From Bacillota bacterium (GTDB lineage Bacteria > Bacillota > SHA-98 > UBA4971), in contig JAAYXB010000014.1 of assembly GCA_012516125.1 (NCBI GenBank), forward strand, positions 62,001-126,000: DNA of 64,000 nt, in the 5' to 3' direction. Position numbers and translations under genes: made by a program. Positions 17,383-39,534 of this stretch are shown piece after piece. The notes under the pieces are model-generated. The model did no database searches and was not told where the DNA came from. It saw nothing but the letters and a program-made list of their open reading frames with translations. The first letter of the stretch is position 1; each line of letters starts with the position of its first letter.

Positions 17383-18831
17383 TCAAGCCCTGCACCGGTC
17401 CTCCGTCCTGCACGAAGCACCCCTTGTGCCGCTGGCGACGCCCTGCCTGCGGGACGACCCCGGGACGATCTTCCCCAGCACCACGCGCCGCCCGGCGCCG
17501 GTCGCCGCCGGCACGTTCGTCGGACGCCCCCGCACAGCCTCGCTCGCGAGGATCGCGAAGGCGATGGCCTCTTTGGCATCGCTGGAGATCCCGAAGTCCT
17601 CATGGGTGAGGACGACGACGCCCGGAAGGCGCTCGCGCAGCATGGCAAGGAGCGTCGGGTTATATGCCCCGCCGCCGCCCACGATGACCTCATCGACCGC
17701 CCGGCCGCACCTCGGGACCACCCATCGCCTGTAGCTTGCGGCGACGGACTCGGCCGTGAGCGCTGTCGCGGTGGCCACAACGTCCTCGCCGGGGATACCG
17801 AGGGCTGACGCCCTCGCCATCATCTCCTGCGCATACTGCGCGCCGAACTCCTCACGGCCGGTGGTCTTCGGGGGTTCCTTCGCGAAGAACGGGTGCAAGA
17901 GCGCCCATGCGAGGAGGTCTTCCCTCACCCTGCCGGATGCCGCCATCCTGCCGTCCTCATCGAATGCCTGTCGCCCCCCGGTCAGGATGGACACAACTCC
18001 GTCGATGACCATGTTGCCGGGACCGGTGTCGAACGCGAACACGTCGGCGAGGCCGCACCCGGCCGGAAGCGCCGTGAGGTTGGCGATGCCCCCGATGTTC
18101 TGGATGATCCTGGTACGGCGCGCATCCCGAAACAGGACATAGTCGGCGTACGGCACAAGCGGCGCCCCCTGGCCTCCCGCGGCCACATCGCGCACGCGGA
18201 AGTCCGCGACGGTGGTGATGCCGGTACGTTCGGCGATGACGGCAGGCTCGCCTATCTGAAGAGTGGACCTCGTCCGCACACCACAGCACGTCTCAGGCTC
18301 GGGGATGTGGTAGATGGTCTGGCCATGGGAGCCGATGAGGTCCACGTCCTCAGGCCCGAGGCCCGCCGCGCGGATAACCTCAAGGGCGGCAGCGGCGAAA
18401 ACCTCCCCGAGCACGAAGTTCATGCGGCAGACCTCATCCACGCTGGATGCCTCAGGCCGCATGAGGGTGAGCACGCGGGCGCGGAGGTCTGGAGGATAGG
18501 GAATCCTTCTGAACACCACTCCTCCAAGCTTGATGGACGGCGCCTCACAAGCGTCCGTAGCCCTGTCCTTGGCCTCGACCGCGGCGGCGTCCGCCGCGGG
18601 TCCGCTCATGGCAGCGCTGGCGGTATAGCTCGTGGCACAGCTTGCGGCACAGCACGCGGCATAGCTCGCGGTGTGGCTCGTGGCATAGCTCGCGGCATAG
18701 CTCGCGGGATGACCCATGGGGCAGCCTGTAGCATCGCCTGCGGCGCTACAGCAGCTATCGTGGATCTCCACGAGCGCCGCGTCCACGCCGTCCGCCGAGG
18801 TGCCCGACATAAGGCCGACGACTCTCAGCAC
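17383..18831 (-). CDS. anmK: Anhydro-N-acetylmuramic acid kinase with low-complexity insertion
   Basis: Phosphorylates 1,6-anhydro-MurNAc released during cell-wall turnover to MurNAc-6-phosphate. Signatures: GLMSGTSADGVDAALV at the start (ATP phosphate loop), GSHGQTIYHIPE, QIGEPAVIAERTG, NIGGIANLT, FDTGPGNMVIDG and GGGGAYNPTL. The family is about 370-390 residues; this protein has 482. About 75 extra residues lie at 24-98, with four-residue Ala-Ser-Tyr units (ASYA, ATSH, AASC) from a 12-bp repeat, between the first strand-loop and LGGVVFRRIPYP. The start GTG overlaps the hydrolase gene by 7 bp. The C-terminus also has about 25 non-family residues. Confidence 0.9.
   Translation of the reverse strand: MLRVVGLMSGTSADGVDAALVEIHDSCCSAAGDATGCPMGHPASYAASYATSHTASYAACCAASCATSYTASAAMSGPAADAAAVEAKDRATDACEAPSIKLGGVVFRRIPYPPDLRARVLTLMRPEASSVDEVCRMNFVLGEVFAAAALEVIRAAGLGPEDVDLIGSHGQTIYHIPEPETCCGVRTRSTLQIGEPAVIAERTGITTVADFRVRDVAAGGQGAPLVPYADYVLFRDARRTRIIQNIGGIANLTALPAGCGLADVFAFDTGPGNMVIDGVVSILTGGRQAFDEDGRMAASGRVREDLLAWALLHPFFAKEPPKTTGREEFGAQYAQEMMARASALGIPGEDVVATATALTAESVAASYRRWVVPRCGRAVDEVIVGGGGAYNPTLLAMLRERLPGVVVLTHEDFGISSDAKEAIAFAILASEAVRGRPTNVPAATGAGRRVVLGKIVPGSSRRQGVASGTRGASCRTEDRCRA
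18614..18711 (-). repeat. 12-bp tandem repeat inside anmK
   Basis: About eight imperfect copies of CATAGCTCGCGG (plus-strand reading) run in register with the anmK frame and encode four-residue units rich in Ala, Ser, Tyr and Cys. Unit length is a multiple of three, so copy-number change would not break the gene. Confidence 0.85.
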
Positions 18832-19886
18832 AGCAAGCTCACCACCACGTTGTGGAACCTCGGCCGGAGCCTTATGTGCGCCTCGTTCGTCCGGCCGAAG
18901 TGCACCCTGTTCGTAAGAAGCACGGCGAAGATATCGAGCTCAGGGTCGATCCATACGGACGTGCCGGTGAAGCCCGTGTGCCCGAAAGCCCTGGGCGACA
19001 TGAGGTCACCCGCCGACGAGAGCACGCCATCGCCGCGGACGGCCCACCCGAGGCCGCGGCTTTCGCCAAGGCGCGGGCCGGTATGGTCGCGCGTCATGGC
19101 CCGCACCGTTGCGGGCGACAGCACGCGCGCCCCACCGAGGGACCCTTCGCCGAGGAGCATCTGGCAGAACACGGCAAGGTCCCCCACGGTGGAAAAAAGC
19201 CCGGCGTTGCCGCTCACCCCGCCCATGGCGAAGGCGTTCTCGTCATGCACCTCCCCGACGAGCACCCGTCCGCGCCACTTGCAGTGCTCCGTGGCGGCGA
19301 CCCGCCCCCTCATCCCTTCCGGCGGGTTGAAGTATGTGTCGCGCATCCCGAGCGGGCCGAACACCTCGTCTGCAAGGAACACGTCCATGGGCCGCCCTGC
19401 GACCCGGCCCACCACCTCGCCGAGAATGATGAAGCCCAGGCAGCTATACACCACCTTGCTGCCGGGCTCGTATTCCAGGGGCATCTTCGAGATTCTCCCG
19501 ATCATGTCCTGGGGAGAGGACGCATGCAGGTAGAGATCCGCCCAGGCGGGAAGCCCTGATGTGTGCGTGAGGAGATGACGGATGGTGACGTTCTCCTTGC
19601 CCGCCGCGCCGAACTCGGGGATGAATTCCTTCACCGCATCGTCCAGCCTCATCCTGCCCCTCTCAATAAGAAGCATCGTCGCGGTCGCCGTGGCGACGCA
19701 CTTGGTGACCGAGGCGAGGTCGAACAGGGTGTCGGGCCTCATGCGCCTCTTCTCCGGGTGGACCATGGCAAACCCGCAGGCTCCCAATCCTGCCACGCCA
19801 TCTCTGGTGCCGAACGCCCACGACGCCCCGGGGATCTCGCCCGAGGCGCAAGCCTCCTCCAGCAGCTCCTCCACGCGCCGTTCCAT
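18825..19886 (-). CDS. Serine hydrolase of the beta-lactamase/penicillin-binding class C fold
   Basis: About 353 residues with the class C layout: nucleophile motif SVTK in DLASVTKCVA, a second motif YSC in KVVYSCLGF where most relatives have YSN, and the third-strand motif HTG in FGHTGFTGTS. No signal peptide is seen, so it is probably cytoplasmic. Relatives include esterases and D-aminopeptidase-like enzymes; linked to anmK and nagZ, a role in muropeptide or sugar-ester cleavage is plausible but unproven. I use the ATG at 19886; a GTG at 19904 is an alternative. Its stop overlaps the anmK start. Confidence 0.8.
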   Translation of the reverse strand: MERRVEELLEEACASGEIPGASWAFGTRDGVAGLGACGFAMVHPEKRRMRPDTLFDLASVTKCVATATATMLLIERGRMRLDDAVKEFIPEFGAAGKENVTIRHLLTHTSGLPAWADLYLHASSPQDMIGRISKMPLEYEPGSKVVYSCLGFIILGEVVGRVAGRPMDVFLADEVFGPLGMRDTYFNPPEGMRGRVAATEHCKWRGRVLVGEVHDENAFAMGGVSGNAGLFSTVGDLAVFCQMLLGEGSLGGARVLSPATVRAMTRDHTGPRLGESRGLGWAVRGDGVLSSAGDLMSPRAFGHTGFTGTSVWIDPELDIFAVLLTNRVHFGRTNEAHIRLRPRFHNVVVSLLC

Positions 19887-20118
19887 CACGCTGCAATCAC
19901 CCACCTCGCAAGGCGCTGACCCGTCCCGGTCCCTGTCCCGGTCCCGGTCCTGGTCCCGGCCCTAACCCCAGCCCTAAGCTCATTTTCCGCAGTAGAAACG
20001 TCTTCCCAGCTAAAGGGCGCAATGGTCGCGTGCCGCAAAACAGTTGGAGGACCCCGGTAACAGGCCCTTTAGCAGGTCATTGCTCAATTTGGCCGCGCTC
20101 CTAATGCGGAAAACGGGC
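19887..20118. other. Intergenic stretch with a GGTCCC microsatellite
   Basis: Contains a CCGGTC/CCTGGT-type hexamer run at about 19920-19970 and otherwise no supported gene. It is the start of the upstream region of the serine hydrolase-anmK pair; no clear promoter was read. Confidence 0.5.
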
Positions 20119-20295: not shown

Positions 20296-21045
20296 TCACG
20301 CCTGGCGCCTCGCCAGGTCCACGTAGAACTTGTACCTGTCGCCTCGATACACTGCCTTCGCAAGCTCCACCGGCTCCCCCGAGGAGGTGAAGGTGACCCG
20401 CTCGATGAGGAGCAAGGGGCTGCCCTGCTCCACCCCGAGAAGGCCGGCCTCGTATTCATTGGCGAGAACAGGCTCGATGGTCTGGCGGGCCGTGGCCAGC
20501 CTGACGCCAAACCTCGTCTCGAGCAGCGCATACAGCGACTGCGCGTTGAGGTCCTCGTTCGCCAGGGACGGCGCAACCTGGTACGGCACGTGCGAGGTCT
20601 CGAGGGCCATGGGCTCGCCGTTCGCAAGGCGCAGGCGCTCGATTCGGATAACGCGCCTATCCACGCCGAGCTTCAGGACGCTTGCCATCTTCTTCGTCGC
20701 CTGGATGCACCGCACGTCGATGACGCGCGCCCCCGGAACGAGGCCCCGGCGGGTCATGTCCTCGGTGAAGCTGGTGAGGTTCACCATACCCTGCTCTATC
20801 TTGGGCTCGGCGACGAACGTCCCTTTGCCCTGCCTTCGATAAAGGAGACCCATGCGCACAAGCTCCGTGATGCCCTGCCTCACGGTCATCCGGCTGATGC
20901 CGTACTCCTGCGCGATCTCGCGCTCGGACGGCAGGCGGTCGCCCGGCTTGAGCTCCTCGTTCTCGATCTTCTCCTGGATCATCCGTCTGAGCTGGTGGTA
21001 TAGGGGGATCATGCCTCTTTCGTCATGTCCAGTCATGGCGCACAT
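20296..21045 (-). CDS. GntR/HutC-family regulator (YvoA/NagR-like)
   Basis: N-terminal GntR winged helix (IPLYHQLRRMIQEKIENEEL; LPSEREIAQEYGISRMTVRQ) and C-terminal UTRA effector domain (SFTEDMTRRGLVPG; ALETSHVPYQVAPSL; QTIEPVLANEYEAGLLG). HutC-type proteins sense sugar phosphates or amino acids; YvoA of Bacillus senses GlcNAc-6-phosphate. Between nagZ and anmK it likely controls amino-sugar recycling. Several in-frame starts exist near 21054-21036; I chose ATG 21045. Palindromic elements lie on both sides of the gene. Confidence 0.85.
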   Translation of the reverse strand: MCAMTGHDERGMIPLYHQLRRMIQEKIENEELKPGDRLPSEREIAQEYGISRMTVRQGITELVRMGLLYRRQGKGTFVAEPKIEQGMVNLTSFTEDMTRRGLVPGARVIDVRCIQATKKMASVLKLGVDRRVIRIERLRLANGEPMALETSHVPYQVAPSLANEDLNAQSLYALLETRFGVRLATARQTIEPVLANEYEAGLLGVEQGSPLLLIERVTFTSSGEPVELAKAVYRGDRYKFYVDLARRQA

Positions 21046-21128
21046 TCGCGTCACCGCCCTCGGCTCATTATGCTACTTACGCTGCTCGCACCGCCCTGCA
21101 TGCTGCGCTGCGCCCCGCCTTCCCCTCC

Positions 21129-23108: not shown

Positions 23109-23599
<491 letters not shown>

Positions 23600-25702
23600 A
23601 TGGACAAGAGGGTGACGCATAACCTGAAGCTCCTCATCGCCGCGGCAGTCGCGGGGCTGGTGGTGTTCGGCGTCGCCACGCCCGCGTTCTGTCAACGCTT
23701 CTCATTCATCCCCGAGGGCGATGAGCGCATTCCGTGTCCCCAGGGCTACGTTTACGAGCGCGAGATCTCAACGATCGGTTTTTCGTCGCCAGAGGACCTC
23801 TTCATCGATTCCTGGGGCAACCTTTTCATAGCGGACACCGGGAACAACCGCATCGTCAGAATAGACCCTTCAGGTGCCCTCCTTGGGGAGATTCGCGGCC
23901 CCGCCGCCGGGCGGATGCTTTCGGGACCGCAAGGCGTCTTCGTGTCACGCGATGGCACCACGTATGTGGCGGACACCGGAAACTACCGGATCGTGGTCTT
24001 CGGCCCGGACGGCGGCACGAAGTTCGTCATCGAGCGCCCGAGATCCTACCTCTTTCGGGGCGAGATGGCGTTTACCCCGACGAAACTGGTCGTTGACAGG
24101 CGAGGGTTTATCTACGCGGTCAACAAGGACGACTACCGGGGGATTCTCGTTTTCGACGGGGAGGGCAAGTTCCGGGGATTCTTCGGCTCGAACCCCGTGG
24201 GCTTCAACTGGCGCGCCCTGCTCATAAGGCTCTTCGCCACGAAGGCCCAGAAGGAACGGATAGCCAGGGACCTGCCACCGCCCCACTCCAACGTCACCAT
24301 CGACGACCAGGGCTACATATACTCGTCTACATACTATGACACCAAGAACCAGATAAAGAAGCTGAGCCCCGCCGGAGTCGACGTGTACAACAAGGGCCTC
24401 GTGATCAGGTATGGCGAGCGAAGGCGCGCCGGCAACCCCGCCTTCGTAGACATCGCCGTGGACGACCAGGGCATCATCTCCGCCCTGGACGCAGGCACGG
24501 GGCAGGTCTACCAGTATGACCAGGACCGCCACCTCCTGCTTCTCTTCGGGACGAAAGGCGACGGCAAGAGCCAGTTCAAGCTCCCTTCGAGCATCTCCGT
24601 GGACAGCGCCCGCAAGATATACGTGCTGGACAAGGACATCGGCGTCATCAAGGTCTTCAGGCCGACTCACTTCGCCACGCTCGTCCACACCGCAAGCCGG
24701 CTCTATTACGACGGACGGTATGCGGAGGCGGAAGCGCCCTGGCGCGAGGTCATTCGCCTCAACTCCAATTACTCCCTCGCGCACACCGGCATAGGCAAGG
24801 CGGCGCTCAAGCGCGGGGACCTCGAAACGGCGATGGCGCACTTCCGCTACGCGAAGGACTACATCGGCTACTCCTCCGCGTTTGCGAAGCTGCGGTACAG
24901 GTACCTGCGCGAACACTTCGGATCGTTCATGGGATGGGTAGGGTTCCTCATCGCCCTCCTCGTCGCCGCCAGGTGGGCTATCGGGCGTGTGATGGCACGT
25001 CCTCACGAGAAGTCGGGCTGGGTCGCAAGGTTCATCCAGTTCACGTTCAACATGATCAGCAGCCCCTTCGAGACGTTTCTCGTGCTCAAGGCCGAGGGGC
25101 CAGTGGCCATGGCCTTCGTCATGGTCGGCCTCGCCATCGCGGCGCGCGTCTTCACCTTGAAGGTCACAGGGTTCCAGCTTGCCCAGGCGAACCTCTTCGA
25201 GGCTCTCTCCCGGCTGAGCCGTTACCAGTGGACGTTTACCGGGTTTTACCTGGGACAGGCGGACCCGGACGAGATCTCCATCGCAGCGGAAGCCGTGAAG
25301 GTGCTGCTCCCCTGGGCGCTCTGGGTCATCGCCAACTACGGAGTCAGCACCATCCACGGCGGCGAGGGCTTTTTGCGCGACGTACTGGTAGGAAGCGCTT
25401 TCTCCCTGGCCCCTTACGTCGTTTTCGCGCCGCCCCTCGCCCTTCTCACGAACGTCGGAACCTGGGACGAAAGAGGCCTCTTCGTCACGCTGTGGTGGGG
25501 AATTGCGCTCTGGGTCGCGTTCCTCATGTTCAACCAGGTGAGGGTGATGCACAACTACGAGTTCGCGGAGGCCTTGTGGGTCTCGCTGGTCACGATCTTT
25601 GGAATGCTGGTCCTCATCGGGGCGGGCGGGCTTACCTACTCCCTCACGAGCCAGATGGTGAACTTCGCCCGCGAGGTGGCGGTCGAGCTGTCCATCAGGT
25701 GA
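23600..25702 (+). CDS. NHL-repeat, TPR and YIP1-domain membrane protein
   Basis: 700 residues. A signal peptide (LLIAAAVAGLVVFGVATPAFC) is followed by NHL beta-propeller repeats at about 55-340 (SPEDLFIDSWGNLFIADTGNNRIVRID and several similar), a TPR pair at about 360-420, a membrane helix at about 440-460, and a C-terminal YIP1-type membrane domain with about five helices. The propeller would lie outside the cytoplasmic membrane. The protein is the first gene of the DUF5696/dual-importer locus; it could be a sensor or scaffold for the transport complex, but no member is characterised as far as I know. The ATG at 23600 has GTTAGGAG a few bases upstream. Confidence 0.82.
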   Translation: MDKRVTHNLKLLIAAAVAGLVVFGVATPAFCQRFSFIPEGDERIPCPQGYVYEREISTIGFSSPEDLFIDSWGNLFIADTGNNRIVRIDPSGALLGEIRGPAAGRMLSGPQGVFVSRDGTTYVADTGNYRIVVFGPDGGTKFVIERPRSYLFRGEMAFTPTKLVVDRRGFIYAVNKDDYRGILVFDGEGKFRGFFGSNPVGFNWRALLIRLFATKAQKERIARDLPPPHSNVTIDDQGYIYSSTYYDTKNQIKKLSPAGVDVYNKGLVIRYGERRRAGNPAFVDIAVDDQGIISALDAGTGQVYQYDQDRHLLLLFGTKGDGKSQFKLPSSISVDSARKIYVLDKDIGVIKVFRPTHFATLVHTASRLYYDGRYAEAEAPWREVIRLNSNYSLAHTGIGKAALKRGDLETAMAHFRYAKDYIGYSSAFAKLRYRYLREHFGSFMGWVGFLIALLVAARWAIGRVMARPHEKSGWVARFIQFTFNMISSPFETFLVLKAEGPVAMAFVMVGLAIAARVFTLKVTGFQLAQANLFEALSRLSRYQWTFTGFYLGQADPDEISIAAEAVKVLLPWALWVIANYGVSTIHGGEGFLRDVLVGSAFSLAPYVVFAPPLALLTNVGTWDERGLFVTLWWGIALWVAFLMFNQVRVMHNYEFAEALWVSLVTIFGMLVLIGAGGLTYSLTSQMVNFAREVAVELSIR

Positions 25703-25929: not shown

Positions 25930-26070
25930 CCAATGTTGGGTGGGCTTGAGGTGCCCAGGCATCCTCAGGTCTTGAGGAGTGGTTGCAGGTTGCGCATCCT
26001 GGGGCGGGACGTTTCCGCAAGAAAAAAGGCAAGGAAAGGCGATCAGAGCCGTACTGCGGTTCGTTCGGGC

Positions 26071-28452
26071 ATGGGCCCGGGCATGGACATGGAGCACGAA
26101 AGGGTCCGCTGGGCCGGCTGGACGACCGTCGCTGGCATGCTTGCGGCCTTCGCGCTCGTGACCATCATCACAGGAGCGCGCTTCCTGACGCTGACACCGG
26201 CTCTGGCGCAGGGCACCGGAGAAGGGCAGTTGCCATCGCTGTTCTCCGGAGAGTTCGGGTTCCCTGAGGAGCCCGAGCCGGGCGCCGCTGAGGCCGAGCC
26301 GGCCGACCAGGCCGCGCCCGCCCCGCCGGAATCGCCTGTAGGCCCTGACTTCGAGCTTGTGGCCTCCAGTGCGAACCTCGAGCTTTACATGAACAAATCC
26401 GACTCGCGCCTCGCCGTGCGCGATCTTCGGTCGGGCAAGATCTGGCGCTCGAGCCCCGAGGTGGGCGATCGCCCGCTCAAGGGCGGGTCTCTCTGGCGCC
26501 AGCACATGGACTCCGCCTTCGTCGTCACCTACACCGACGCAAGGAAGCGGGGCACGAAGGTCACCAACAACATCCGCGAGGCCGCGACCATCTCATGGGA
26601 GCCGCTGGAGTGGGGCCTGAAGGCACGCTATGACATGCCGAGGCTGGGCATAGCCCTCTCCATCGAGTATCGCCTCGGCGATGACTACCTGGACGTGCGC
26701 ATCCCGGGCGATGAGATAGAGGAGCGAAGCGAGTTCAAGCTGGTGACGATTGAGCCTCTCCCCTTCTTCGGCGCGACATTCGACGACATCGATGGCTACA
26801 TGCTCATCCCCGATGGGAGCGGCGCCCTCATGCATTTCGGCGGGCGCCGTGGCGAGCCCAGGCGCGCGTTCTATGAACCCATCTACGGCCATGACTGGAT
26901 CGCCAAGAACATCTACTCCATCCTGACGCATGTCTCGATGCCCGTCTTCGGCATCGCCCACTCCGGCGCGGAGGGCCGCGAGGTGCCCGGTTCGTTCCTT
27001 GCCATCGTGACAAGGGGCGACTTCGAGGCCAGGATCACCTGCTCGCCCGCAGGGTACATCACCGATTTCAACCGCGCAAGCGTCGAGTTCCTCGCAAGGC
27101 GGCAGTACTCCGCGCCCATCAGCGCCCAGGTCTTCGTAAACACCTTTACCGACGACCTCATCCGGGGAGAGCGCTCCGCAAGATATGTGTTCCAGGCAGG
27201 CGACGAGGCTGGCTACCCGGGAATGGCCGCGGCCTATAGAAACTACCTTGTGAAGGATAGAGGGCTTACCAGGAACGCCGACGCCGATCCTGGCGCCGCC
27301 CCCGCCCGTCTTCAGCTTCGGATTTTCCACGGGATCACGAAGAAGACGGGCATGCTCTCTCGGTTCATCCCCATGACCACTTTTGACGAGGCCCGCGTCA
27401 TCCTCGACGCGCTTCTCGACGCAGGCATCACCGGCATGGACGTGACCCTCGTCGGCTGGACGCGCGACGGCTACGACGGCGCCGCGCCGTTACGGCTTCC
27501 GCCCGACACGCGCCTCGGTGGCGAGAAGGGCCTCGCGGCATTTGTCGCCTACGCAAAGTCGAAGGGCCAGAGGGTATTCCTCGAGGATAACTACCTCGAC
27601 GCCTTCCGGGGCAACGGCGGATTCTCCACGCGAACGGACGTCCTCCGGGGCTACGACAAGCTCCCCCGGTTCATCGAGCCGGACAACTTCTTCCTGACGC
27701 CCGACGCCGCCATGCGCCATGCGTCCCACGACATGCCCATTATGGCGAGGCTCGGGGTGGACGGCATCGACATCCGTTACCTGGGCCAGTATGCGCTGTC
27801 CCACACTGAGCGCCGCCGCTCGGAGCGGCGCGACGAGGTGACCGCGAAATGGCTCAAGCTTGCGGACCTCGCCCGGCGCAAGTTCGGCAGCGTAGGCTCC
27901 ATTGGCGGCGACATGTACGTCCTCGGCTACGTGGACCGGATAACCGACGTCTGGATGGAGGACAGCGAGTACGAGTTCGTTGACGAGGACGTCCCATTCT
28001 ACCAGATGGTGGTGCATGGGCTCGTGCCCTACTGCGGTTACCCGGGCAACCTCCGCAGCGACCCGGACATCGAGTTCCTGAAGATGATCGAGTACGGCGC
28101 CCTGCCCGCCTTCGAGCTGACCTACGGGCACTCGTCGGCCCTTCGGGAAACCCAGTACAACATGCTCTTCAGCTCCTTCTACAAGGACTGGATCGACGTC
28201 GCGGCGAAGGAATGGCGCGTGGTCTGCGCCGAGATGGGCGACCTCCAATCGAAGCTCATGACGGGCCACAGGGTCATCGCGCCCGGCGTCAGGGAGACTG
28301 CGTACGAGGACGGCACCCGGGTCGTCGTGAACTACAACGAGTTCGACCAAGAAGTGGACGGGACGCTGGTCCGCGCCCGCAGCTATGCGGTAGTTCGCCG
28401 CGACGCCGCCACCGGAGACTCCCGCACCCGCGAAGGGGGGACCGCAAGGTGA
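26071..28452 (+). CDS. DUF5696 protein, putative exported glycoside-hydrolase-like enzyme
   Basis: About 793 residues: an N-terminal membrane/signal segment (TTVAGMLAAFALVTIITGA), a Pro/Glu/Ala-rich linker, an N-terminal beta domain (NLELYMNKSDSRLAVRDLRSGKIW, a form typical of this family), then a TIM-barrel-like region with MTTFDEARVILDALLDAGI, MDVTLVGWTRDGYDG, GQRVFLEDNYLDAF and DGIDIRYLGQYALS. The arrangement resembles retaining or inverting glycosidases, but catalytic residues cannot be assigned. Its stop overlaps the next permease start. Starts upstream to 25933 are open; I chose the ATG before the signal segment, with low certainty. Confidence 0.75.
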   Translation: MGPGMDMEHERVRWAGWTTVAGMLAAFALVTIITGARFLTLTPALAQGTGEGQLPSLFSGEFGFPEEPEPGAAEAEPADQAAPAPPESPVGPDFELVASSANLELYMNKSDSRLAVRDLRSGKIWRSSPEVGDRPLKGGSLWRQHMDSAFVVTYTDARKRGTKVTNNIREAATISWEPLEWGLKARYDMPRLGIALSIEYRLGDDYLDVRIPGDEIEERSEFKLVTIEPLPFFGATFDDIDGYMLIPDGSGALMHFGGRRGEPRRAFYEPIYGHDWIAKNIYSILTHVSMPVFGIAHSGAEGREVPGSFLAIVTRGDFEARITCSPAGYITDFNRASVEFLARRQYSAPISAQVFVNTFTDDLIRGERSARYVFQAGDEAGYPGMAAAYRNYLVKDRGLTRNADADPGAAPARLQLRIFHGITKKTGMLSRFIPMTTFDEARVILDALLDAGITGMDVTLVGWTRDGYDGAAPLRLPPDTRLGGEKGLAAFVAYAKSKGQRVFLEDNYLDAFRGNGGFSTRTDVLRGYDKLPRFIEPDNFFLTPDAAMRHASHDMPIMARLGVDGIDIRYLGQYALSHTERRRSERRDEVTAKWLKLADLARRKFGSVGSIGGDMYVLGYVDRITDVWMEDSEYEFVDEDVPFYQMVVHGLVPYCGYPGNLRSDPDIEFLKMIEYGALPAFELTYGHSSALRETQYNMLFSSFYKDWIDVAAKEWRVVCAEMGDLQSKLMTGHRVIAPGVRETAYEDGTRVVVNYNEFDQEVDGTLVRARSYAVVRRDAATGDSRTREGGTAR

Positions 28453-29444
28453 ATCCCGAGGCCAGGCGCCCGCAAAGCTCGAGGTCAAGGTCCAGCTCGC
28501 GACCGGCGCCGGGATCTATACCAAGGTCGATGCCGAGATCGATGCCGAGGCCGACGGCAAAGCCGGTGGCGAGGCAGAGGTTCAAGCTGAGCCTCTCAGG
28601 AAGGCGCGCATTGTGGGGCTTCATCCTCCTCACTCCGTGGTTTGCCGGGATGGCCATCTTCGCCCTGGGGCCGTTCGTTCAGTCGTTCGTGATAAGCCTG
28701 AGCGAGGTGGACCTCATCCGCGGCTTCAACCTGAGGTTTGTCGGCCTCGCAAACTACCGCGAGGCGTTCGTGGTGGACCAGAGGTTCGTGCCGCTCCTCC
28801 TGCGCACGATTGCGGACAGCGTCATCAACGTCCCGATCATACTGGTCTTCTCGCTCGTAGCCGCCTTCCTCATAAACCAGCGTATCAGAGGGCTTGGGTT
28901 CTATCGCGCCGTCTTTTTCCTCCCCGTAGTGGTTGTTTCCGGAATAGTTGTGGAGCAGCTCTTCAACCAGGACATAGCTAACACGATGTACAGCGGGATC
29001 ATCCCAATCGTGCTGATGGTCTTCAGGTATTTCGGGAATCAGGTTGCCACGATGGTAGCCAACTTTCTGTCCACGATCCTCATGGTCCTGTGGCGATCGG
29101 GGGTGCAGATCCTCCTCTTCCTTGCCGGCCTTCAGGGGATCTCATGCACCTATTACGAGGCTGCGAGGGTGGACGGCGCAACAGACTGGGAGGTCTTCTG
29201 GCTGGTCACCCTCCCTATGCTCACGCCGATCATCCTGGTGAATATCATCTACACCATCGTAGACTCGTTTACTGACGTCTTCAACGAGATGCTGTTCTTC
29301 ATAAAGGACGTCGGGTTCTCGGGCAGCTTCAGGCTGGGGTACGCCGCTGCCCTCGGATGGATCTACTTTCTCATGATTTTCATCATCATCGCCATCGTGA
29401 CCCTGTCATCCCGCAGGTGGGTCTTCTATGGCGGTGAACGCTAA
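28449..29444 (+). CDS. MalF-type sugar ABC transporter permease (first pair)
   Basis: Six-helix permease with the EAA loop YYEAARVDGATDWEVFWLVTLPML. The start GTG at 28449 overlaps the DUF5696 stop and has AAGGGGGG about 8 nt upstream, so the two are coupled. The first 50 residues are low-complexity and basic (SRSRSSSRP, IPRSMPRSMPRP), encoded by short repeats. The stop codon TAA is the first three bases of palindromic element C. Confidence 0.87.
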   Translation: MNPEARRPQSSRSRSSSRPAPGSIPRSMPRSMPRPTAKPVARQRFKLSLSGRRALWGFILLTPWFAGMAIFALGPFVQSFVISLSEVDLIRGFNLRFVGLANYREAFVVDQRFVPLLLRTIADSVINVPIILVFSLVAAFLINQRIRGLGFYRAVFFLPVVVVSGIVVEQLFNQDIANTMYSGIIPIVLMVFRYFGNQVATMVANFLSTILMVLWRSGVQILLFLAGLQGISCTYYEAARVDGATDWEVFWLVTLPMLTPIILVNIIYTIVDSFTDVFNEMLFFIKDVGFSGSFRLGYAAALGWIYFLMIFIIIAIVTLSSRRWVFYGGER

Positions 29445-29636
29445 GTGAGGGTGCAGAAATGCTCCCGACTTTTGGGAGAGGTTGCCGGTGATTGCACGAG
29501 GGGTGTCAAAATCCGGCCACCGGCCAGACGGGCCGGATTTTGTCAAGGCGCCCCGCTTGGGGCGCCGTCCCCGAGTGCAACACCGGCAACCCGGCAACTA
29601 CTGGAAGAGTGGCGAGGATTAACGCACCCTCACTTA
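29442..29636. repeat. Dispersed palindromic element, copy C (long form)
   Basis: 195 bp, the reverse-complement arrangement of copy B with near-identical sequence, including both internal hairpins. It begins TAAGTGAGGGTGC and ends GCACCCTCACTTA; flanking CGC and GCG extend the terminal pairing. It sits between the two permease genes of one operon, where it must be transcribed. Confidence 0.93.
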
Positions 29637-29707
29637 GCGGATTCTGTTTGGCAAGGTGAGGGCGAGTTTTCACGATCAGGCTGAAGAAGCAGCAGGAGGC
29701 GTTCCAG

Positions 29708-30691
29708 GTGGCAGGCTCCCGTCAGGTCACATATAGCGCGATAACCGGCCTTGCCGCCCGGCTGCGGGCCTCGATGCGGCCCGACGCCCGGGGCGTGCCG
29801 GTCATGTTGGTGTGGGCGAGGAGGCTCCAGAATCTCTTTTTCAAGGCCCTCCTCTACCTCGTGCTGACCGGGATCGCCTTCACCTTCTTGCTCCCCATCA
29901 TCTACATGGCGAGCACCGGGCTCAAGACCGTCGAGGACTACATAGACCCCGGCGTGCGCTGGGTGCCCACCGAGCCGAACTACAACAACTTCGTCCTCGC
30001 CTATCAGGGCCTGGCGTACCTCGCCACTCTGCGCAACAGCTCCCTTGTAGCAGTGGTCTCCGCCCTCGGCCAGATCATCTCGTGCTCGATGATCGGGTAC
30101 GCCTTCGCCCGGATCAGGTTCCCCGGCCGCGAGTTTCTCTTCCTGCTAGTGCTTTTCACCTTCATAGTGCCGCCACAGACGATCGTGGTGCCTCTCTTCA
30201 TACTCTATCGGCGCCTTGGCTGGATAGACACGTACTGGCCGTTCATCGTGCCCAGTTTCCTCGGTCACGGCCTGCGCGGCGCGCTGTTCATCCTTATCTT
30301 CCGGCAGTTCTTCCGCAGGCTTCCATGGGAGCTGGAGGACGCGGCCCGCATCGACGGCTGCAACGAGTTCCAGACATACTTGCGCATAATGCTGCCGCTC
30401 GCGAGGCCGGCGATCCTGGTAACTTTCCTCTTCTCGCTGGTATGGCACTGGAACGACTTCTACGAGCCGATGATGTACCTCATGAAACTCGAGAAATTCA
30501 CGATGCCGCTGCGCCTGCGGATGCTCCAGACGGGGCTTGAGCAGATCTACGGCGGACAGGGAGCCAATCTCATGAACGAGCCGCTCGTGATGGCCGCGGC
30601 GCTTCTCGTCATCGCGCCGCCGCTCATCCTCTACGCGTTCGCGCAGCGCTATTTCGTGGAGAGCATAGAACGCACGGGGCTGGTTGACTGA
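29708..30691 (+). CDS. MalG-type sugar ABC transporter permease (first pair)
   Basis: Permease partner of the preceding gene, with six helices and the EAA loop WELEDAARIDGCNEFQTYLRIMLPLARP. Start GTG at 29708 with AGGAGG 8 nt upstream. An N-terminal extension of about 40 residues precedes the first helix. It is separated from its partner only by palindromic element C. Confidence 0.88.
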   Translation: MAGSRQVTYSAITGLAARLRASMRPDARGVPVMLVWARRLQNLFFKALLYLVLTGIAFTFLLPIIYMASTGLKTVEDYIDPGVRWVPTEPNYNNFVLAYQGLAYLATLRNSSLVAVVSALGQIISCSMIGYAFARIRFPGREFLFLLVLFTFIVPPQTIVVPLFILYRRLGWIDTYWPFIVPSFLGHGLRGALFILIFRQFFRRLPWELEDAARIDGCNEFQTYLRIMLPLARPAILVTFLFSLVWHWNDFYEPMMYLMKLEKFTMPLRLRMLQTGLEQIYGGQGANLMNEPLVMAAALLVIAPPLILYAFAQRYFVESIERTGLVD

Positions 30692-30692
30692 C

Positions 30693-33600
30693 ATGAGGAA
30701 GGGTATAACCAGGCTGGCTAGCGCCGTTACATTCCTGATACTGCTCCTCCTGGGCGCGGCGCTCTCGTGCCCGGAAGTTGCCCTGGCACAGACACAGCCC
30801 AAGGACGAGGCTGTCGAGGTTGGGACCGGGGCACGGGCTGAGACCGGGGACATCTTTCGTCTCAAAGAGCGGCCGTACGCCGACGTGCTCGCGGACTTGC
30901 GGGCCGAGGGACTCGCATCCGCGCTCGACGTGGACATCACTGTGCCCGCCTGGCGTTACGCCGCCGCCCAGGCGGACGTGCGTGTCGCAGAAGAGATGGG
31001 CGGCGAAGGCCCGGCCCTCGTGTGGGCGGGTGAGGAGGGCTGGGTCGAGTGGGAGGTCCACGTGCCGAAGTCCGGCCTGTACAACATCGAGCTCAGGTAT
31101 TACCCGCTCCCCGGGAGACGCGCGTCCATCCAGCGAGACCTCAAGATAGACGGCGAGTATCCTTTCGCGGAGGCAAAGAAACTCATCTTCCAGCGCACCT
31201 GGCGCGACGCAGGCCCGCCTGCCACCGACAACCGGGGCGACCACGTCAGGCCGCGACAGGTCGAGGTGCCGATGTGGCGCACGGTGCGCCTGGAGGATGC
31301 GGACGCCATGCACGACCGGCCGTTCCTCTTCTATCTCTCTGCGGGAAAGCACCGACTTCGCATGGGCGGCATCCGCGAGCCGATCGTCCTCAAGTATCTG
31401 CGGATATGCCCCGGAGAGCAGATCCCGGCGTACGGCGACGTGCTGAAAGAATACAGGCGGCTCGGCTACGAGCCCGTTCAGAACGCGTTCGTGAAGATCC
31501 AGGCCGAGGATGCGGCCTTGAAGTCAGACCCCACGATCAGACGCGAGTATGGCGAGGATCCGCTCTCTGAGCCCATCTCCCACGACCACAGGCTGCTATC
31601 GGAGTTCGGGGGCTTGCGCTGGCGCCGGGGCGGCCAGTTCGTGTCGTGGAAGTTCTCCGTCCCGAAGACCGGGCTGTACCAGATCGCCATGCGCGTCTGG
31701 CAGCCATGGAGCCACGAGCCGATCTACCGTGAGATCCGCATCGACGGCAAGGTCCCGTTCCAAGAGATGCTCCAGGTGCCTTTCCGCGAGGACCCCGGGT
31801 GGAGGATGCAGGTGCTCGCGGACAGATGCGGCGAGCCGTACCTTTTCTACCTCGAAGAGGGCGAGCACACTCTCACCATGACCGTGAAGGTAGGGCCCAT
31901 CGCGCCCGTCATTTGGAGCATGGAGCAGGTCCAGAGGACCCTCTCCATGGTGGGCCGCGAGGTCATAATGCTCACCGGCTCGAATCCCGACCCCAACATG
32001 GAGTGGGAGCTCGACCGGCAGATCCCGGACCTCATCCCAACGCTCGAGAGCGTCGTAAGGAAGCTGGAAGCCACCTACGCGGACCTCGTGCGCGTGTCCA
32101 CGAAGCCGAGCAGCGTCGCAAACAACCTGAAGATGGTGGCATCGCAGCTCAAAAGCATGATAGCCAATCCCGATTCCATTCCCACCCGTATCGAGCAGCT
32201 CGCGAACAGCCAGGCACAGCTGGGCCAGGGGGCCCTGGGCCTTCGCAACCACCCGCTCCAGATGGACTACATCCTCATCACCTCGCCCGGCGCGCGCCTG
32301 CCACGCGCGAGGGCCACCATCGGCGAGCAGCTTGCCAGGGGGGTCCGGGAGTTCCTGAGGTCCTTCAGGAAGGACTACTCGGGCGTGGGGAGCACGTTTG
32401 GGCAGGCCGGCGGCGGGATCGGCGAGACCACCCTCAACGTGTGGATCGCGCGCGGGCGCGACTGGGCGGAGATCATAAAAGACCTCATCGAGGAGGACTT
32501 TACCCCGAGGACGGGCGTGAGAGTCAACGTCAACATCATGCCGGCGGGCGACATCAGGGCGCTCCTCCTCTCCGCCGTGGCGGGGCGCGCGCCCGACATC
32601 GCCATGGGCGTGGACGCGAACTTCCCCGTGGAGTTCGCCATCAGGGGCGCGCTCGAGCCGCTCGACAAGTTCCCGCACTACCCGGAGGTCACGAAGAGGT
32701 TCCGGCCGGGGGCGCTCGTCCCCTTCCGGTATCGTGGCGCCTCTTACGCCCTGCCTGAGGAGCAGAACTTCACCATGCTCTTCTACCGGAAGGACATCCT
32801 CGGCGAGCTTGGCCTTACGCCTCCCGAGACCTGGGATGATGTGTACGGCCTCATGTCTACGCTACACCAGAACGGGCTTGACTTCTATTACCCGTACGGC
32901 CTATTCACGCCGTTCTTGTTCCAGCACGGCGGCAACTACTACACGCCTGACGGCCTCCGGTCGGCGCTGGACACGCCAGAGGCCCTTGCGGCCTTCAAGG
33001 AATGGACCGGGCTTTATACGAGCTACAAGGTGCCGACCATAGCCAACTTCTACATGCGAATGCGCACCGGCGAGATGCCCATAGGCATCGCCGACTACTC
33101 CACGTACGTCCTGCTATCCACCGCCGCTCCGGAGATAACGGGATGGTGGGAGATGAGGCCGATGCCCGGCCGAAGGCTGCCGGACGGCAGGATCGACCGC
33201 TCCACCGGTGGCACGTCCAGGGCGGTGATGATGTTCCGACAGAGCCGGCACAAGGAGGCTGCGTGGGAGCTCATAAAGTGGTGGACGTCCACCGAGGTCC
33301 AGGTGCGCTTCGGCACCGAGCTCGAGGCGCTTCTCGGAGTCGAGGCCAGATGGAACAGCGCCAACGTGGAAGCGCTCAAGGAGCTACCATGGCCCAGAAA
33401 GGACATCGAGGCCGTGCTGGAGCAATGGGAATGGTTCCGGGAGCAGCCCGTCGTGCTGGGAGGCTACTACACGTCCCGCCACGTCATCAACGCCTGGAAC
33501 CGCGTGGTGCTCGAGGGCTGGAACCCGCGCGAGGCCCTGGAGCAGGCGGTCGAGGACATCGACCGCGAACTGCGCAAGAAGCAGGAGGAGTTCGGCGTGT

Positions 33601-33749
33601 TCGCAACGGGCGCTGGGGCTGATACTAAGACTGAGACTGAGACTGGGGCTGAGGCTGAGGCTGAGGCTGAGGCTGGGGCTGGGGCGAGAACCGGGACTGG
33701 GATCGAAGCCGAGGCCGGGACCAGGACCGGCGGTGCCACCGGACGGTGA
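30693..33749 (+). CDS. Giant solute-binding protein with two N-terminal beta-sandwich-like modules
   Basis: About 1,018 residues. Signal segment 1-33; two related modules at about 75-240 and 280-430, each with the pattern VPKSGLYNIELR / VPKTGLYQIAMR, an IDG(E/K)xPF motif and a closing FLFYL / YLFYL-GxH(R/T)L strand, resembling carbohydrate-binding beta-sandwiches; a helical region at about 430-580; then a family-1 solute-binding domain from about 590 (TGVRVNVNIMPAGDIRALLL, GRAPDIAMGVDANFP, FYRKDILGELGL). The tail is Glu-Ala/Gly-Thr repeats. It probably captures a complex carbohydrate for the first permease pair. Its TGA stop lies in a truncated palindromic element. Confidence 0.82.
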   Translation: MRKGITRLASAVTFLILLLLGAALSCPEVALAQTQPKDEAVEVGTGARAETGDIFRLKERPYADVLADLRAEGLASALDVDITVPAWRYAAAQADVRVAEEMGGEGPALVWAGEEGWVEWEVHVPKSGLYNIELRYYPLPGRRASIQRDLKIDGEYPFAEAKKLIFQRTWRDAGPPATDNRGDHVRPRQVEVPMWRTVRLEDADAMHDRPFLFYLSAGKHRLRMGGIREPIVLKYLRICPGEQIPAYGDVLKEYRRLGYEPVQNAFVKIQAEDAALKSDPTIRREYGEDPLSEPISHDHRLLSEFGGLRWRRGGQFVSWKFSVPKTGLYQIAMRVWQPWSHEPIYREIRIDGKVPFQEMLQVPFREDPGWRMQVLADRCGEPYLFYLEEGEHTLTMTVKVGPIAPVIWSMEQVQRTLSMVGREVIMLTGSNPDPNMEWELDRQIPDLIPTLESVVRKLEATYADLVRVSTKPSSVANNLKMVASQLKSMIANPDSIPTRIEQLANSQAQLGQGALGLRNHPLQMDYILITSPGARLPRARATIGEQLARGVREFLRSFRKDYSGVGSTFGQAGGGIGETTLNVWIARGRDWAEIIKDLIEEDFTPRTGVRVNVNIMPAGDIRALLLSAVAGRAPDIAMGVDANFPVEFAIRGALEPLDKFPHYPEVTKRFRPGALVPFRYRGASYALPEEQNFTMLFYRKDILGELGLTPPETWDDVYGLMSTLHQNGLDFYYPYGLFTPFLFQHGGNYYTPDGLRSALDTPEALAAFKEWTGLYTSYKVPTIANFYMRMRTGEMPIGIADYSTYVLLSTAAPEITGWWEMRPMPGRRLPDGRIDRSTGGTSRAVMMFRQSRHKEAAWELIKWWTSTEVQVRFGTELEALLGVEARWNSANVEALKELPWPRKDIEAVLEQWEWFREQPVVLGGYYTSRHVINAWNRVVLEGWNPREALEQAVEDIDRELRKKQEEFGVFATGAGADTKTETETGAEAEAEAEAGAGARTGTGIEAEAGTRTGGATGR

Positions 33750-33920
33750 AGGTGCAGAAGCCCTGCCGACTTTGGGAGGGGTTGGCGGTGCTTGCACGAG
33801 GGGTGTCAAAATCCGGCCAGCGGCCCGACGGGCCGGATTCTGGCGAAGCGCGCCCCGCTTGGGGCACCGTCCGCGAATGCAACACCGGCAACTCACCAGA
33901 TGTTGGCAAACCGGCAAGAA
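33747..33920. repeat. Dispersed palindromic element, copy D (long form, ends degraded)
   Basis: Starts TGAAGGTGCAG instead of the full terminal repeat, keeps GGGGTTGGCGGTG, the CAAAATCCGGCC / GGCCGGATTCTGG-type hairpin and the GCGCCCCGCTTGGGGC hairpin with changes, and loses the right terminal repeat. It separates the giant binding protein gene from the next permease gene. Confidence 0.8.
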
Positions 33921-33933
33921 GGCGGTGAGAGCT

Positions 33934-34908
33934 GTGAAGGGCGTAACCTGGGGAGAGCAGGTCAAGTGGGCGGACCGGGTAGGCCGGTCGCGGCGTCGGG
34001 CGGCGGGCTGGCTCGCAAGGCTGTGGCAGGAGATGAAGAAGCATCGGGTGTCCTATTACTTCATGGCGCCCTACCTGGTCCTCTTCTTCGTTTTCACTGT
34101 CATCCCGGTCATCACCGCCATATACCTTAGCTTTACGTACTTCAACGTGCTGGAGCCGCCGAGGTGGATAGGTTGGTCCAACTACCGGCTTCTGTTCTTG
34201 GAAGACGACGTGTTCCTGATAGCCCTCAAGAATACCCTGGTCTTCGCGGTCATCGCCGGCCCCATCGGGTACATCGCCTCGTTCATGCTGGCCTGGCTTA
34301 TAAACCAGTTGAGGTTCCGGGCCGCGTATACCCTGGCGTTCTACGTACCCTCTATCACGAGCGGCATAGCCATGGCCGTGGTGTGGATGTACTTCTTCAG
34401 CAGCGACAGGCTGGGCCTCATAAACTACGTCCTCATTAACCTCGGCATCATCAACGAGCCTGTGCTATGGCTCCACGACAAGGACACCATCCTGCCCGTG
34501 ATAATCATCGTCTCGCTGTGGATGTCCATGGGAGCAGGGTTCCTGGCGTTCGTGGCAGGCCTCAAGAACGTCCCTGAGGAGCTTTACGAGGCAGGCAGGG
34601 TGGACGGCATCAGGAACAAGCTGGAGGAAATGTGGCTCATCACCGTGCCGCTTATGAAGCCGCAGCTCCTCTTCGGCGCCGTCATGGCCGTGGTGAGCTC
34701 GTTCCAGGTCTTCGGCGTGGCCATGCAGCTTGCCGGGTTTCCAAGCCCGCTCTATGCGGGGCACACCATCCTGACGCACCTGCACGACTACGCGTTCATC
34801 AGGTACGAGATGGGGTACGCATCGGCCATCTCGGTCGTGCTGTTCGCGATCACGTTCGGGCTGAGCCGGATCTTCATGAGGATCTTCTCGACCCACGGGG
34901 ACTACTGA
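33934..34908 (+). CDS. MalF-type sugar ABC transporter permease (second pair)
   Basis: Six-helix permease (VSYYFMAPYLVLFFVFTVIP at the first helix) with the EAA loop ELYEAGRVDGIRNKLEEMWLITVPLM. The frame is open from 33733 but that part is translated palindromic repeat; GTG 33934 (or 33925) lies just past the element and is the more likely start. Membrane topology and length of about 324 residues are normal for the family. Confidence 0.86.
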   Translation: MKGVTWGEQVKWADRVGRSRRRAAGWLARLWQEMKKHRVSYYFMAPYLVLFFVFTVIPVITAIYLSFTYFNVLEPPRWIGWSNYRLLFLEDDVFLIALKNTLVFAVIAGPIGYIASFMLAWLINQLRFRAAYTLAFYVPSITSGIAMAVVWMYFFSSDRLGLINYVLINLGIINEPVLWLHDKDTILPVIIIVSLWMSMGAGFLAFVAGLKNVPEELYEAGRVDGIRNKLEEMWLITVPLMKPQLLFGAVMAVVSSFQVFGVAMQLAGFPSPLYAGHTILTHLHDYAFIRYEMGYASAISVVLFAITFGLSRIFMRIFSTHGDY

Positions 34909-34963
34909 GCGTGCCGGCGGGAGTAAGGCCGAGGCCGACGTTTCGCGATACGGGGGTATCCAC

Positions 34964-35869
34964 ATGGTAGCGCAGCGACGAGAGAATCAACATTACAGGC
35001 GCCGCAACATGCGCCCCAACAGGCCCCGCAGGTTGAAATGGGGGCGGGTCATGCTGTATGTGTTCGTGACAGCCCTCGCGGCGTTCATGGCCATGCCCCT
35101 CATCTACCTCATCTCGTCGGCTTTCAAGCCCATCGAGGAGCTTTTCGTGTTCCCGCCGAGGTTCTTCGTGCGGCACCCGACGACCCGTAACTTCGTCGAG
35201 CTCCTTCTCGCCGTAAGCGGCAGCTCCGTGCCGTTCTCAAGGTTCGCGTTCAACAGCATCTTCGTCTCGTCGGTAACAGTGCTCGGGAGCGTCATACTCT
35301 CGAGCATGGCCGCATACCCGCTTGCGAAGCACAGGTTTCCAGGGAAGGACCTCATCTTCCTCGGGATCGTGTCCGCGCTCATGTTCGCGCCCGAGGTGAC
35401 GCAGATCCCGCGCTACCTTGTGGTAAACAGGCTGGGGCTCATCGACACCTATGGGGCCCTCATCATCCCGAACCTCGCCGGCGCGCTGGGGCTGTTCCTT
35501 ACGAAGCAGTTCCTGGAGCAGATCCCTGGCGTTTTGCTGGAGGCGGCGCGGGTGGACGGCGCCTCGGAGTGGACCATCTTCACCAGGGTGATCATGCCCA
35601 TTATCAAGCCCGCCTGCGCCACCGTGGCGATGCTGGTGTTTGTAGCAGCGTGGAATGACACCTTCAGCCCGCTGGTGTTCACGCGCAGCGAGGCGATGAA
35701 GACCCTGCCCCTCGCGGTGCAGACTATCGCCGGCGGGCCGGGCGTCGTGGCGCGCACGGGCGCGGTGATGGCGGCCACTTTCGTCCTGACGATGCCGACC
35801 ATCATCGTATTCTTGCTGCTTCAGCGCCTGGTTCTGGAGACCATGGTGCACTCGGGAATCAAGGCGTAG
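34964..35869 (+). CDS. MalG-type sugar ABC transporter permease (second pair)
   Basis: Partner of the preceding permease, 301 residues, with a basic N-terminus, six helices and the EAA loop VLLEAARVDGASEWTIFTRVIMPIIKP. The ATG at 34964 has GGGGG 7 nt upstream. With the binding protein at 36193 it makes a second, conventional importer in the same locus, again without an ATPase gene. Confidence 0.9.
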   Translation: MVAQRRENQHYRRRNMRPNRPRRLKWGRVMLYVFVTALAAFMAMPLIYLISSAFKPIEELFVFPPRFFVRHPTTRNFVELLLAVSGSSVPFSRFAFNSIFVSSVTVLGSVILSSMAAYPLAKHRFPGKDLIFLGIVSALMFAPEVTQIPRYLVVNRLGLIDTYGALIIPNLAGALGLFLTKQFLEQIPGVLLEAARVDGASEWTIFTRVIMPIIKPACATVAMLVFVAAWNDTFSPLVFTRSEAMKTLPLAVQTIAGGPGVVARTGAVMAATFVLTMPTIIVFLLLQRLVLETMVHSGIKA

Positions 35870-37479: not shown

Positions 37480-39534
37480 TTAGTAGTGCTTTGCGGCGGG
37501 GAGGCGCACCGTGAAGGTGCTGCCCTCCCCTTCTTTGCTTTCCACGGAGATCGTGCCTCCGTGAGCCTCCACAATGCCGTGGCTCACGGCGAGCCCGAGG
37601 CCAACGCCGGTGCTTCGAGTGGTGAAGAAGGGTGTGAAGATCTTGGCGAGATTCTCGCGGGGGATGCCAAGTCCCGTGTCGGCAAATTCCACCCAAACGT
37701 AGCCGCCACCCCTGCCGCTTGCTCCGGCGCGCCGGCCCGGGCATCTGCCCGTTCCCCGGCGCCGCCGGTCGACGCCAAGGCGAACCCTGAGGACCCCGCC
37801 GTCCGGCATCGCCTGTATGGCGTTCACGGCGAGGTTCAGGAATACCTGCTTGAGCTGGGCCTCATCCGCGAGGACCGGTGGGAGTCCCGCTCCAGGGGCC
37901 TCCGCGGTACCAGCATCGGTACGCTCCTCGCCCGGCCGCCCCCCTTCCCCTTTCGGCGTTGCTCCCTCTCCTCCCGCTTTCCCCCTTCTTTCTCCTCCTT
38001 CTACTTTTCCCTCTACTTCTATCCTCACGCCGGCTGCAGCCGCCTGACGCTCCACGAGGTAGAGCGTGTCCTCAACGACGCGCCGTACGTCGGTGGGCCT
38101 CAGGTGCATCTCCTGATGGCGTGAGAACACCGTGAGGTTCTTGATAATGGACGAGCAGCGCGCGGCCTCCTCCTCGATGGCCCTGAGCGGCTTCAGGTAT
38201 TCGTTGGGAGGGTCGATGGTTTTTGCGATCTTGTCCGCAAGATGCTCTGCGCACGCCGATATGATGCCGATGGGGTTGTTTATCTCGTGGGCTATGCCGG
38301 CGGCGAACTCGCCCACCACCTTCATGCGCTCCGCGTGCCTCAGGCGTTCACCCAGGCTCACCCGCACCGTCACGTCCTCGGCCACGATAATGGCGCCTGT
38401 CACAACGTCGCCCGCGCCTGCGGCCATGCCCGGAGACCCGTCCCCGTCCTGGCCCTGGCCCCCGGCTTCCTGCTGCCCTTCGCTGGGCTGCCTGTCCTGC
38501 GCGCTCACAAGTGGGCATACCCTGCACGAAATGACGTATTCCCTGCCATCCGGCGCATGTTGCCTCATCTCGTCGCTCTCCAGGGTTTCCCCTTCCTCGA
38601 GCACCTCCCTGAGGACGTCCCCAAGGCCCGCTTCGGCCTGTTCAGGCAGGACCTCGAAATACTTCCTCCCCAACGCCTGCTCCGCCGGGATCCCGGTAAT
38701 GGCCTGCATCCCACTGTTCCAGGTGGTGATGACGAGGTCCTTGTCCACCACCGCGAGGCCTATCGTCAGGCTCTCGATGATGCTCTCGTTATACTCTTTC
38801 AGCGCCGAAAGCTCCCTGTTAGCCTGACCGAGGTCCGCGTACAGCTCGGCGTTCTCGAGCGCGGCGGAGGCGTACGCCGCAAGGATCGTGAGGAACCTGA
38901 TCTCGTCGCGGGTTCGCTCGTGGATGCTCGGCGTGTACACAGTCAGGACGCCGGTCACCTCGCCGCGCACCGCGAGGGGCACCGAAAGGGCGAAGGTCAT
39001 CCCCTCCCGGCCCATGTCCTCGAAGTACGTGCTTGCCTCGCCCGCGCCGTCAACACCGGCGAGGGGTTTCCCGAGCCGGACCACCTGCCCGAGGGAGCTT
39101 GTATCAACGGGAACAGACCCGCTCTTCTCAACGAACTCAGGAGACAGGCCGTGGTGAGCCTTCAGGACGAGGTGGGATCTATCGCGGCTCAGGATGCGGA
39201 TGGCGCAGCCCTGGGACGGGACGAGGCGGCTCGCAATCACCGCAATGCGGTCCAGAACCTCATCGGGCCGGCGGATGGACATGAGCTCCTTCCCGACCTC
39301 GAAGAGGCTTGCAAGTTGCAGCACACGCCGGTTGAGCTCGGCATTTGCGGCCACGAGTTCTTTCTGGAGGGCGAGGTCGTTCTCGGCAAGGCCTGACACG
39401 AACTCGCGCATGGAGGCAAGCTGTTCCCGTGCCTCGGCGATCCTGCGCCGTGCCGCACGCCTTTCCAAATAAGCAAATGCCAGCGCCCCCGCGGCCATGG
39501 CGGCGAGCGCCGCATCTACCCAGGCACTGCCCAT
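37480..39534 (-). CDS. Membrane-anchored GAF-PAS sensor histidine kinase
   Basis: One N-terminal membrane helix (WVDAALAAMAAGALAFAYL), a coiled coil, a GAF domain (about 95-240), a PAS domain (SIIESLTIGLAVVDKDLVITTWN), HisKA with the phospho-acceptor in GIAHEINNPIGI, and HATPase (NLAVNAIQAM, FADTGLGIPRENLAKIFTPF, GVGLGLAVSHGI). Two low-complexity insertions occur, one in the PAS region (QPSEGQQEAGGQGQDGDG) and a 50-residue Gly/Glu stretch before the N box. ATG 39534 chosen with GGGGTG 7 nt upstream. The NtrC-type gene just upstream is the obvious partner. Confidence 0.9.
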   Translation of the reverse strand: MGSAWVDAALAAMAAGALAFAYLERRAARRRIAEAREQLASMREFVSGLAENDLALQKELVAANAELNRRVLQLASLFEVGKELMSIRRPDEVLDRIAVIASRLVPSQGCAIRILSRDRSHLVLKAHHGLSPEFVEKSGSVPVDTSSLGQVVRLGKPLAGVDGAGEASTYFEDMGREGMTFALSVPLAVRGEVTGVLTVYTPSIHERTRDEIRFLTILAAYASAALENAELYADLGQANRELSALKEYNESIIESLTIGLAVVDKDLVITTWNSGMQAITGIPAEQALGRKYFEVLPEQAEAGLGDVLREVLEEGETLESDEMRQHAPDGREYVISCRVCPLVSAQDRQPSEGQQEAGGQGQDGDGSPGMAAGAGDVVTGAIIVAEDVTVRVSLGERLRHAERMKVVGEFAAGIAHEINNPIGIISACAEHLADKIAKTIDPPNEYLKPLRAIEEEAARCSSIIKNLTVFSRHQEMHLRPTDVRRVVEDTLYLVERQAAAAGVRIEVEGKVEGGERRGKAGGEGATPKGEGGRPGEERTDAGTAEAPGAGLPPVLADEAQLKQVFLNLAVNAIQAMPDGGVLRVRLGVDRRRRGTGRCPGRRAGASGRGGGYVWVEFADTGLGIPRENLAKIFTPFFTTRSTGVGLGLAVSHGIVEAHGGTISVESKEGEGSTFTVRLPAAKHY

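Follow-up and report, generated by a model that had tools for sequence, protein, structure and literature searches.

Gene content of the locus

The window analysed here is a 64,000-nucleotide stretch of a Bacillota genome that is available as a 98-contig draft (98.5% complete, 4.2% contamination). It contains a transport cassette whose genes lie in the order NHL-Yip1 protein, DUF5696 protein, permease 1, permease 2, large solute-binding protein (SBP), permease 3, permease 4 and second SBP. Transcribed divergently from the cassette, across an intervening gap of 491 bp, is an operon for NagZ, a GntR regulator, a hydrolase and AnmK (Table 1). No ATPase gene was found within the cassette. In the nearest outside clade, a 43%-identical relative of the second SBP adjoins the cassette. 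Genes for a GAF/PAS sensor histidine kinase and a sigma-54-activating response regulator border the cassette (37480-41121 of the window, minus strand).

Table 1. Genes, receptor domains and candidate operator, in window coordinates
Feature	Coordinates	Strand	Evidence or remark
AnmK, anhydro-N-acetylmuramic acid kinase	17383..18831	-	NF007148, 494.6 bits vs 387
Serine hydrolase, beta-lactamase/PBP4B family	18825..19904	-	profile search
GntR/UTRA (HutC-type) regulator	20296..21054	-	profile search
NagZ-type GH3 beta-N-acetylhexosaminidase, apparent signal segment	21321..23108	-	NF003740, 211 bits vs 207
ATGTCTAGACAT palindrome, candidate GntR operator	23362..23373	.	in gap between divergent operons
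Signal segment, NHL propeller, TPR, Yip1 membrane domain	23600..25702	+	equivalent of 'X' in C. bescii operon
DUF5696 protein, exported or anchored	25933..28452	+	distant GH129 glycosidase relative
CUT1 permease 1	28449..29444	+	start inferred from homologues
CUT1 permease 2	29708..30691	+	profile search, cassette comparison
Large solute-binding protein, 1018 aa	30693..33749	+	signal segment, two CBM6/35-like modules, helical stalk, SBP_bac_1 domain, low-complexity tail
Module 1, residues 84-245	30942..31427	+	conserved loop insertion: R168, D179, E191, W195, D202
Module 2, residues 261-415	31473..31937	+	profile and model
Helical stalk, residues about 416-575	31938..32417	+	structure model
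Family-1 solute-binding domain, residues 576-970	32418..33602	+	profile search, alignment
CUT1 permease 3, XloF-like	33925..34908	+	start uncertain
CUT1 permease 4, XloG-like	34964..35869	+	profile search, cassette comparison
Second solute-binding protein, ordinary size, 426 aa	36193..37473	+	profile search

Comparison of the DUF5696 protein with PDB profiles gave 8rzk/5opq as the best matches (~6e-10), with the alpha-N-acetylgalactosaminidase 5wzn at 4.7e-9. We take these structures to be of the GH129 class, and judged by such profile matches the DUF5696 protein appears remotely GH129-like. The aspartate of the LDGW motif in 5wzn, a possible catalytic residue, aligns with aspartate in some DUF5696 members and with valine in the window protein. 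A literature search of partial coverage found no papers on DUF5696.

Domain organization of the receptor

The open reading frame of the large SBP, hereafter the receptor, is genuine and begins with ATG. An alternative TTG start is present at 30684, and the TTG version overlaps the stop of the upstream permease gene. Module 1 carries VPKSGLYNIELR..IDGEYPF and module 2 carries VPKTGLYQIAMR..IDGKVPF, and profile-profile comparison indicates that the two are homologous (99.7% probability, E 1.1e-25, 40% identity over 91 columns). The SBP domain matches SBP_bac_1 (PF01547) across residues 592-870 with 89.1 bits against a cut-off of 26 and is the most conserved part of the receptor, at 50% mean identity among 24 cluster representatives. 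Some polar and aromatic residues in the module 1 loop (those named in Table 1) are kept across the 24 sequence clusters; from the alignment, such retention could reflect a common feature of the ligands or a common protein partner.

Similar to other family-1 SBPs of CUT1 transporters, the receptor scores above the SBP_bac_1 cut-off and adjoins CUT1 permease genes (28449-30691 and 33925-35869). Unlike them, it has about 575 extra N-terminal residues, and no lipobox was seen by eye. Lipoprotein anchoring was considered and rejected, as by eye the cysteine of an ALSC sequence misfits a lipobox and is unconserved in two congeners. The final ~45 residues (33617-33746 of the window) form a low-complexity tail of Glu, Ala, Gly and Thr encoded by short imperfect DNA repeats, with no counterpart in the aligned relatives.

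Fold of the tandem modules

An AlphaFold2 model of residues 53-575, built with 20 aligned homologues (pLDDT 84, pTM 0.83), consists of two beta domains followed by the helices of the stalk (model residues 349-466). When the model was compared with the PDB, the significant neighbours were mostly CBM6, CBM35, CBM22-tandem and CBM-bearing glycosidase structures, with target-normalised TM-scores of ~0.65-0.71 for isolated CBM6 and CBM35 chains. The structural neighbours include further jelly rolls too, insecticidal Cry proteins among them; therefore, the comparison establishes a fold class and not a function. Sequence profiles agreed weakly (best E about 0.008 and 0.05), with consistent matches to CBM6 and CBM35, and performed better than a search of the PDB with the N-terminal region as one sequence, which returned weak matches only. 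The receptor falls below the Pfam CBM cut-offs (CBM_35 14.6 vs 28), and one stand-alone relative of the modules exceeds that for CBM_35 (32.3 vs 28). Model and profiles together support the assignment of both modules as beta-jelly-rolls of the CBM6/CBM35 kind. They share with CBM35 and CBM6 the jelly-roll fold and a weak profile similarity, but differ in lying under the curated cut-offs and in being fused to an SBP instead of an enzyme.

The initial annotation of this DNA described a binding protein of roughly 1,000 residues in which two related modules, each with an IDG-x-x-PF motif, and a helical stalk precede a family-1 binding domain. Every element of that description is borne out by the reading frame, the paired motifs, the module homology, the modelled helices and the SBP_bac_1 match, and the carbohydrate-binding sandwich that it anticipated agrees with the modelled resemblance to CBM6, CBM35 and CBM22; an unrelated fold did not appear.

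Exported proteins consisting of one or two such modules without an SBP domain are encoded at nine loci (genome family f9), and two of the f9 proteins adjoin genes for permease 3/4-like and ATP-binding proteins. Fusions of an SBP with CBMs were not found in the literature covered, which was partial and is weak evidence of novelty.

Distribution of the architecture and its cassette

Of 398 genomes drawn evenly across Bacillota, 45 have a match to the N-terminal region, a minority of them in short module-like proteins only, and the architecture within the conserved cassette is present in roughly a tenth of the genomes. The complete architecture also occurs in Paenibacillus, Bacillus, Lederbergia, unclassified Bacillota and one Chloroflexota MAG; no relatives were found in viral contigs. 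At all 19 loci in named genomes the order is large SBP, permease 3, permease 4, NHL, Yip1, DUF5696, permease 1, permease 2, varying just by rotation or part fusion. Among 20 further loci from many families, 17 have the receptor together with permeases 3 and 4, NHL, Yip1 and DUF5696; of the other three, two are truncated where their contigs end, and one is short, comprising the receptor plus permeases 3 and 4 only. The uniqueness implied by the initial annotation is therefore wrong. The NHL-TPR-Yip1 and DUF5696 proteins accompany the receptor at nearly all loci. Elsewhere, the cassette has GH43, arabinofuranosidase, GH2, DUF2961, GH5 or sulfatase genes as neighbours, and given these differing glycosidase neighbours its cargo probably varies between organisms.

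Relation to XloE of Caldicellulosiruptor bescii

The locus in C. bescii comprises a large SBP (XloE, Athe_0174), two permeases, an NHL-Yip1 protein, a DUF5696 protein, two further permeases and an ordinary SBP, followed by GH43 and GH10 enzymes. This order matches the operon given in PMC8579813 as xloEFG-X-GH129-axoFGE, followed by xylan enzymes and induced on xylan, in which 'X' is the NHL-Yip1 protein and 'GH129' the DUF5696 protein. The xloE operon is a member of the XynR regulon and is described as an ABC transporter (PMC8579813 and PMC12285236). About 150 bases upstream of the C. bescii homologue we found ACTAGTAAACGCTTACGATA, an exact match to the published XynR operator at the xylan degradation locus (Athe_0174), a site that XynR binds (PMC12285236). 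The available text of the XloE literature makes no mention of CBM-like modules. Thus, a cassette of the XloE type has already been partly annotated in C. bescii, and an SBP with tandem CBM-like modules, tied to this cassette in so many of the sampled Bacillota genomes, has apparently gone unremarked.

XloE and the window receptor are alike in domain order, in cassette genes and in their SBP domains (47% identity). They differ in that the window cassette has a rotated order and a divergent NagZ/AnmK operon, in that GH10 and GH43 were not found in the window genome (one profile each, 98-contig draft), and in their phylogenetic position: in a tree of 49 proteins, some on long branches, the window clade stands apart from the Caldicellulosiruptor clade with 100% SH-aLRT.

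The divergent NagZ-AnmK operon

This set of NagZ, a GntR regulator, a PBP4B/beta-lactamase-family hydrolase and AnmK resembles muropeptide salvage operons. The palindrome ATGTCTAGACAT in the gap between this operon and the cassette is identical in three members of the genus, in which its flanks have diverged. Its core, TGTCTAGACA, has a single occurrence in the 3.24-Mb genome, where ~1.3 would be expected by chance, and the chance expectation within the 491-bp gap is about 2e-4. The sequence TGGTNTANACCA, which we take to be a NagR/DasR-type operator, was sought in the gap and is absent; the conserved palindrome differs from it.

NagZ, the hydrolase and AnmK are arranged alike in two other cassette-bearing members of the genus, and GntR was recognised in one of these. 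In genomes outside the genus, the surroundings of the cassette revealed neither NagZ nor AnmK. Among 13 genomes of the family, AnmK occurs in seven, the cassette in four and both in three. Four of the 13 have AnmK but no cassette and one has the cassette but no AnmK, so the link between them is not obligate. The initial annotation had guessed at a cell-wall glycan as the ligand; this gains indirect support from the divergent operon and the shared palindrome, but is weakened by the separate occurrence of AnmK and cassette. One congener is without the cassette, NagZ, GntR and the hydrolase, and its AnmK gene directly adjoins the histidine kinase gene whose window counterpart flanks the cassette. 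A single deletion or insertion would explain this locus, which demonstrates linkage and not function.

Elsewhere in the window genome, genes for MurQ, NagA, NagB and two NagK-like kinases (below the model cut-off) lie together, and no transporter was recognised beside them. AmpG gave no match in this genome (one profile, 98-contig draft). An Omp85 protein is encoded, which implies an outer membrane.

A model for the receptor

We consider it likely that the protein is the glycan-uptake receptor of an XloE-type cassette. Exported by its signal segment, it would form the extracytoplasmic part of an uptake cassette with two pairs of CUT1 ABC permeases. The SBP domain would hand an oligosaccharide to permeases 3 and 4, powered by a shared ATPase encoded elsewhere, which is presumed because the cassette encodes none. 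The stalk-borne CBM35/CBM6-like modules probably hold the parent glycan, or else place the receptor beside the GH129-like DUF5696 and NHL-Yip1 proteins; fragments could thereby be made and bound next to the permeases, with the modules adding avidity or positioning the receptor in an envelope complex. Glycan binding by the modules would make the cassette a Bacillota counterpart of surface glycan-binding uptake machines.

As to cargo, an amino-sugar or peptidoglycan-derived saccharide in the periplasm of a diderm cell seems most likely. Through the shared palindrome, the GntR regulator would control the cassette together with NagZ and AnmK, while MurQ, NagK, NagA and NagB would complete catabolism. 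We regard this account as a whole, with its amino-sugar or peptidoglycan cargo and GntR co-regulation, as about equally likely to be right or wrong, and its narrower component, that the cargo here derives from peptidoglycan, is put forward tentatively, as less likely than not. More speculative, and on balance unlikely, is the proposal that a GntR-controlled ABC importer for peptidoglycan fragments replaces AmpG in diderm Bacillota, with the tandem modules gripping murein strands or fragments in the periplasm. Such a role would parallel YejBEF-YepA of Agrobacterium, an ABC importer for peptidoglycan recycling (cited in PMC11980594) by which wall fragments enter through an ABC transporter instead of AmpG; the analogy is one of proposed function only. 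A murein cargo here would point to a way in which diderm Bacillota that lack AmpG reclaim their wall.

The alternative that survives best, possible though somewhat improbable, is that the modules are jelly-roll docking surfaces that bind no glycan and join the receptor to DUF5696, NHL-Yip1 or the permeases. The near invariance of the cassette and the sub-threshold Pfam CBM scores are in keeping with docking, and retention of the module 1 loop residues despite differing glycosidase neighbours is easier to reconcile with an unvarying partner than with glycans that change. However, the nearest folds are mainly glycan-binding CBMs, and related modules stand alone in exported proteins without an SBP domain, one of them above the CBM_35 cut-off.

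We are more doubtful of the design put forward in the initial annotation, in which the SBP domain would receive fragments of a polymer first caught by the modules at the cell surface. The domain architecture invites this reading, a GH129-like extracytoplasmic protein of the cassette could supply fragments, and the C. bescii operon also encodes secreted xylan enzymes (the GH10 and GH43 of the locus; PMC8579813). Nevertheless, in an organism whose genome encodes Omp85, export over the inner membrane would bring the receptor into contact with saccharides of the periplasm, which makes surface capture less natural, and with no lipobox visible its exposure to an external polymer is doubtful. Xylan oligosaccharides, as for XloE, were set aside as the leading substrate guess and are very unlikely: the shared cassette and architecture and the XynR-controlled, xylan-induced operon of C. 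bescii (PMC8579813 and PMC12285236) are outweighed by the lack of GH10 and GH43 matches (one profile each, draft genome), the separation into different major clades and the amino-sugar character of the local genes.

Dispersed repeats at the locus

A G+C-rich, hairpin-forming dispersed repeat of ~107 bp (about 90-93% identity) has at least 40 copies in the genome. Four of these lie in the window, at 21175-21279 (-), 29486-29590 (+), 33785-33905 (+) and 42184-42290 (-), and two of the four separate transporter operon genes. Congeners hold diverged copies (79-84%).
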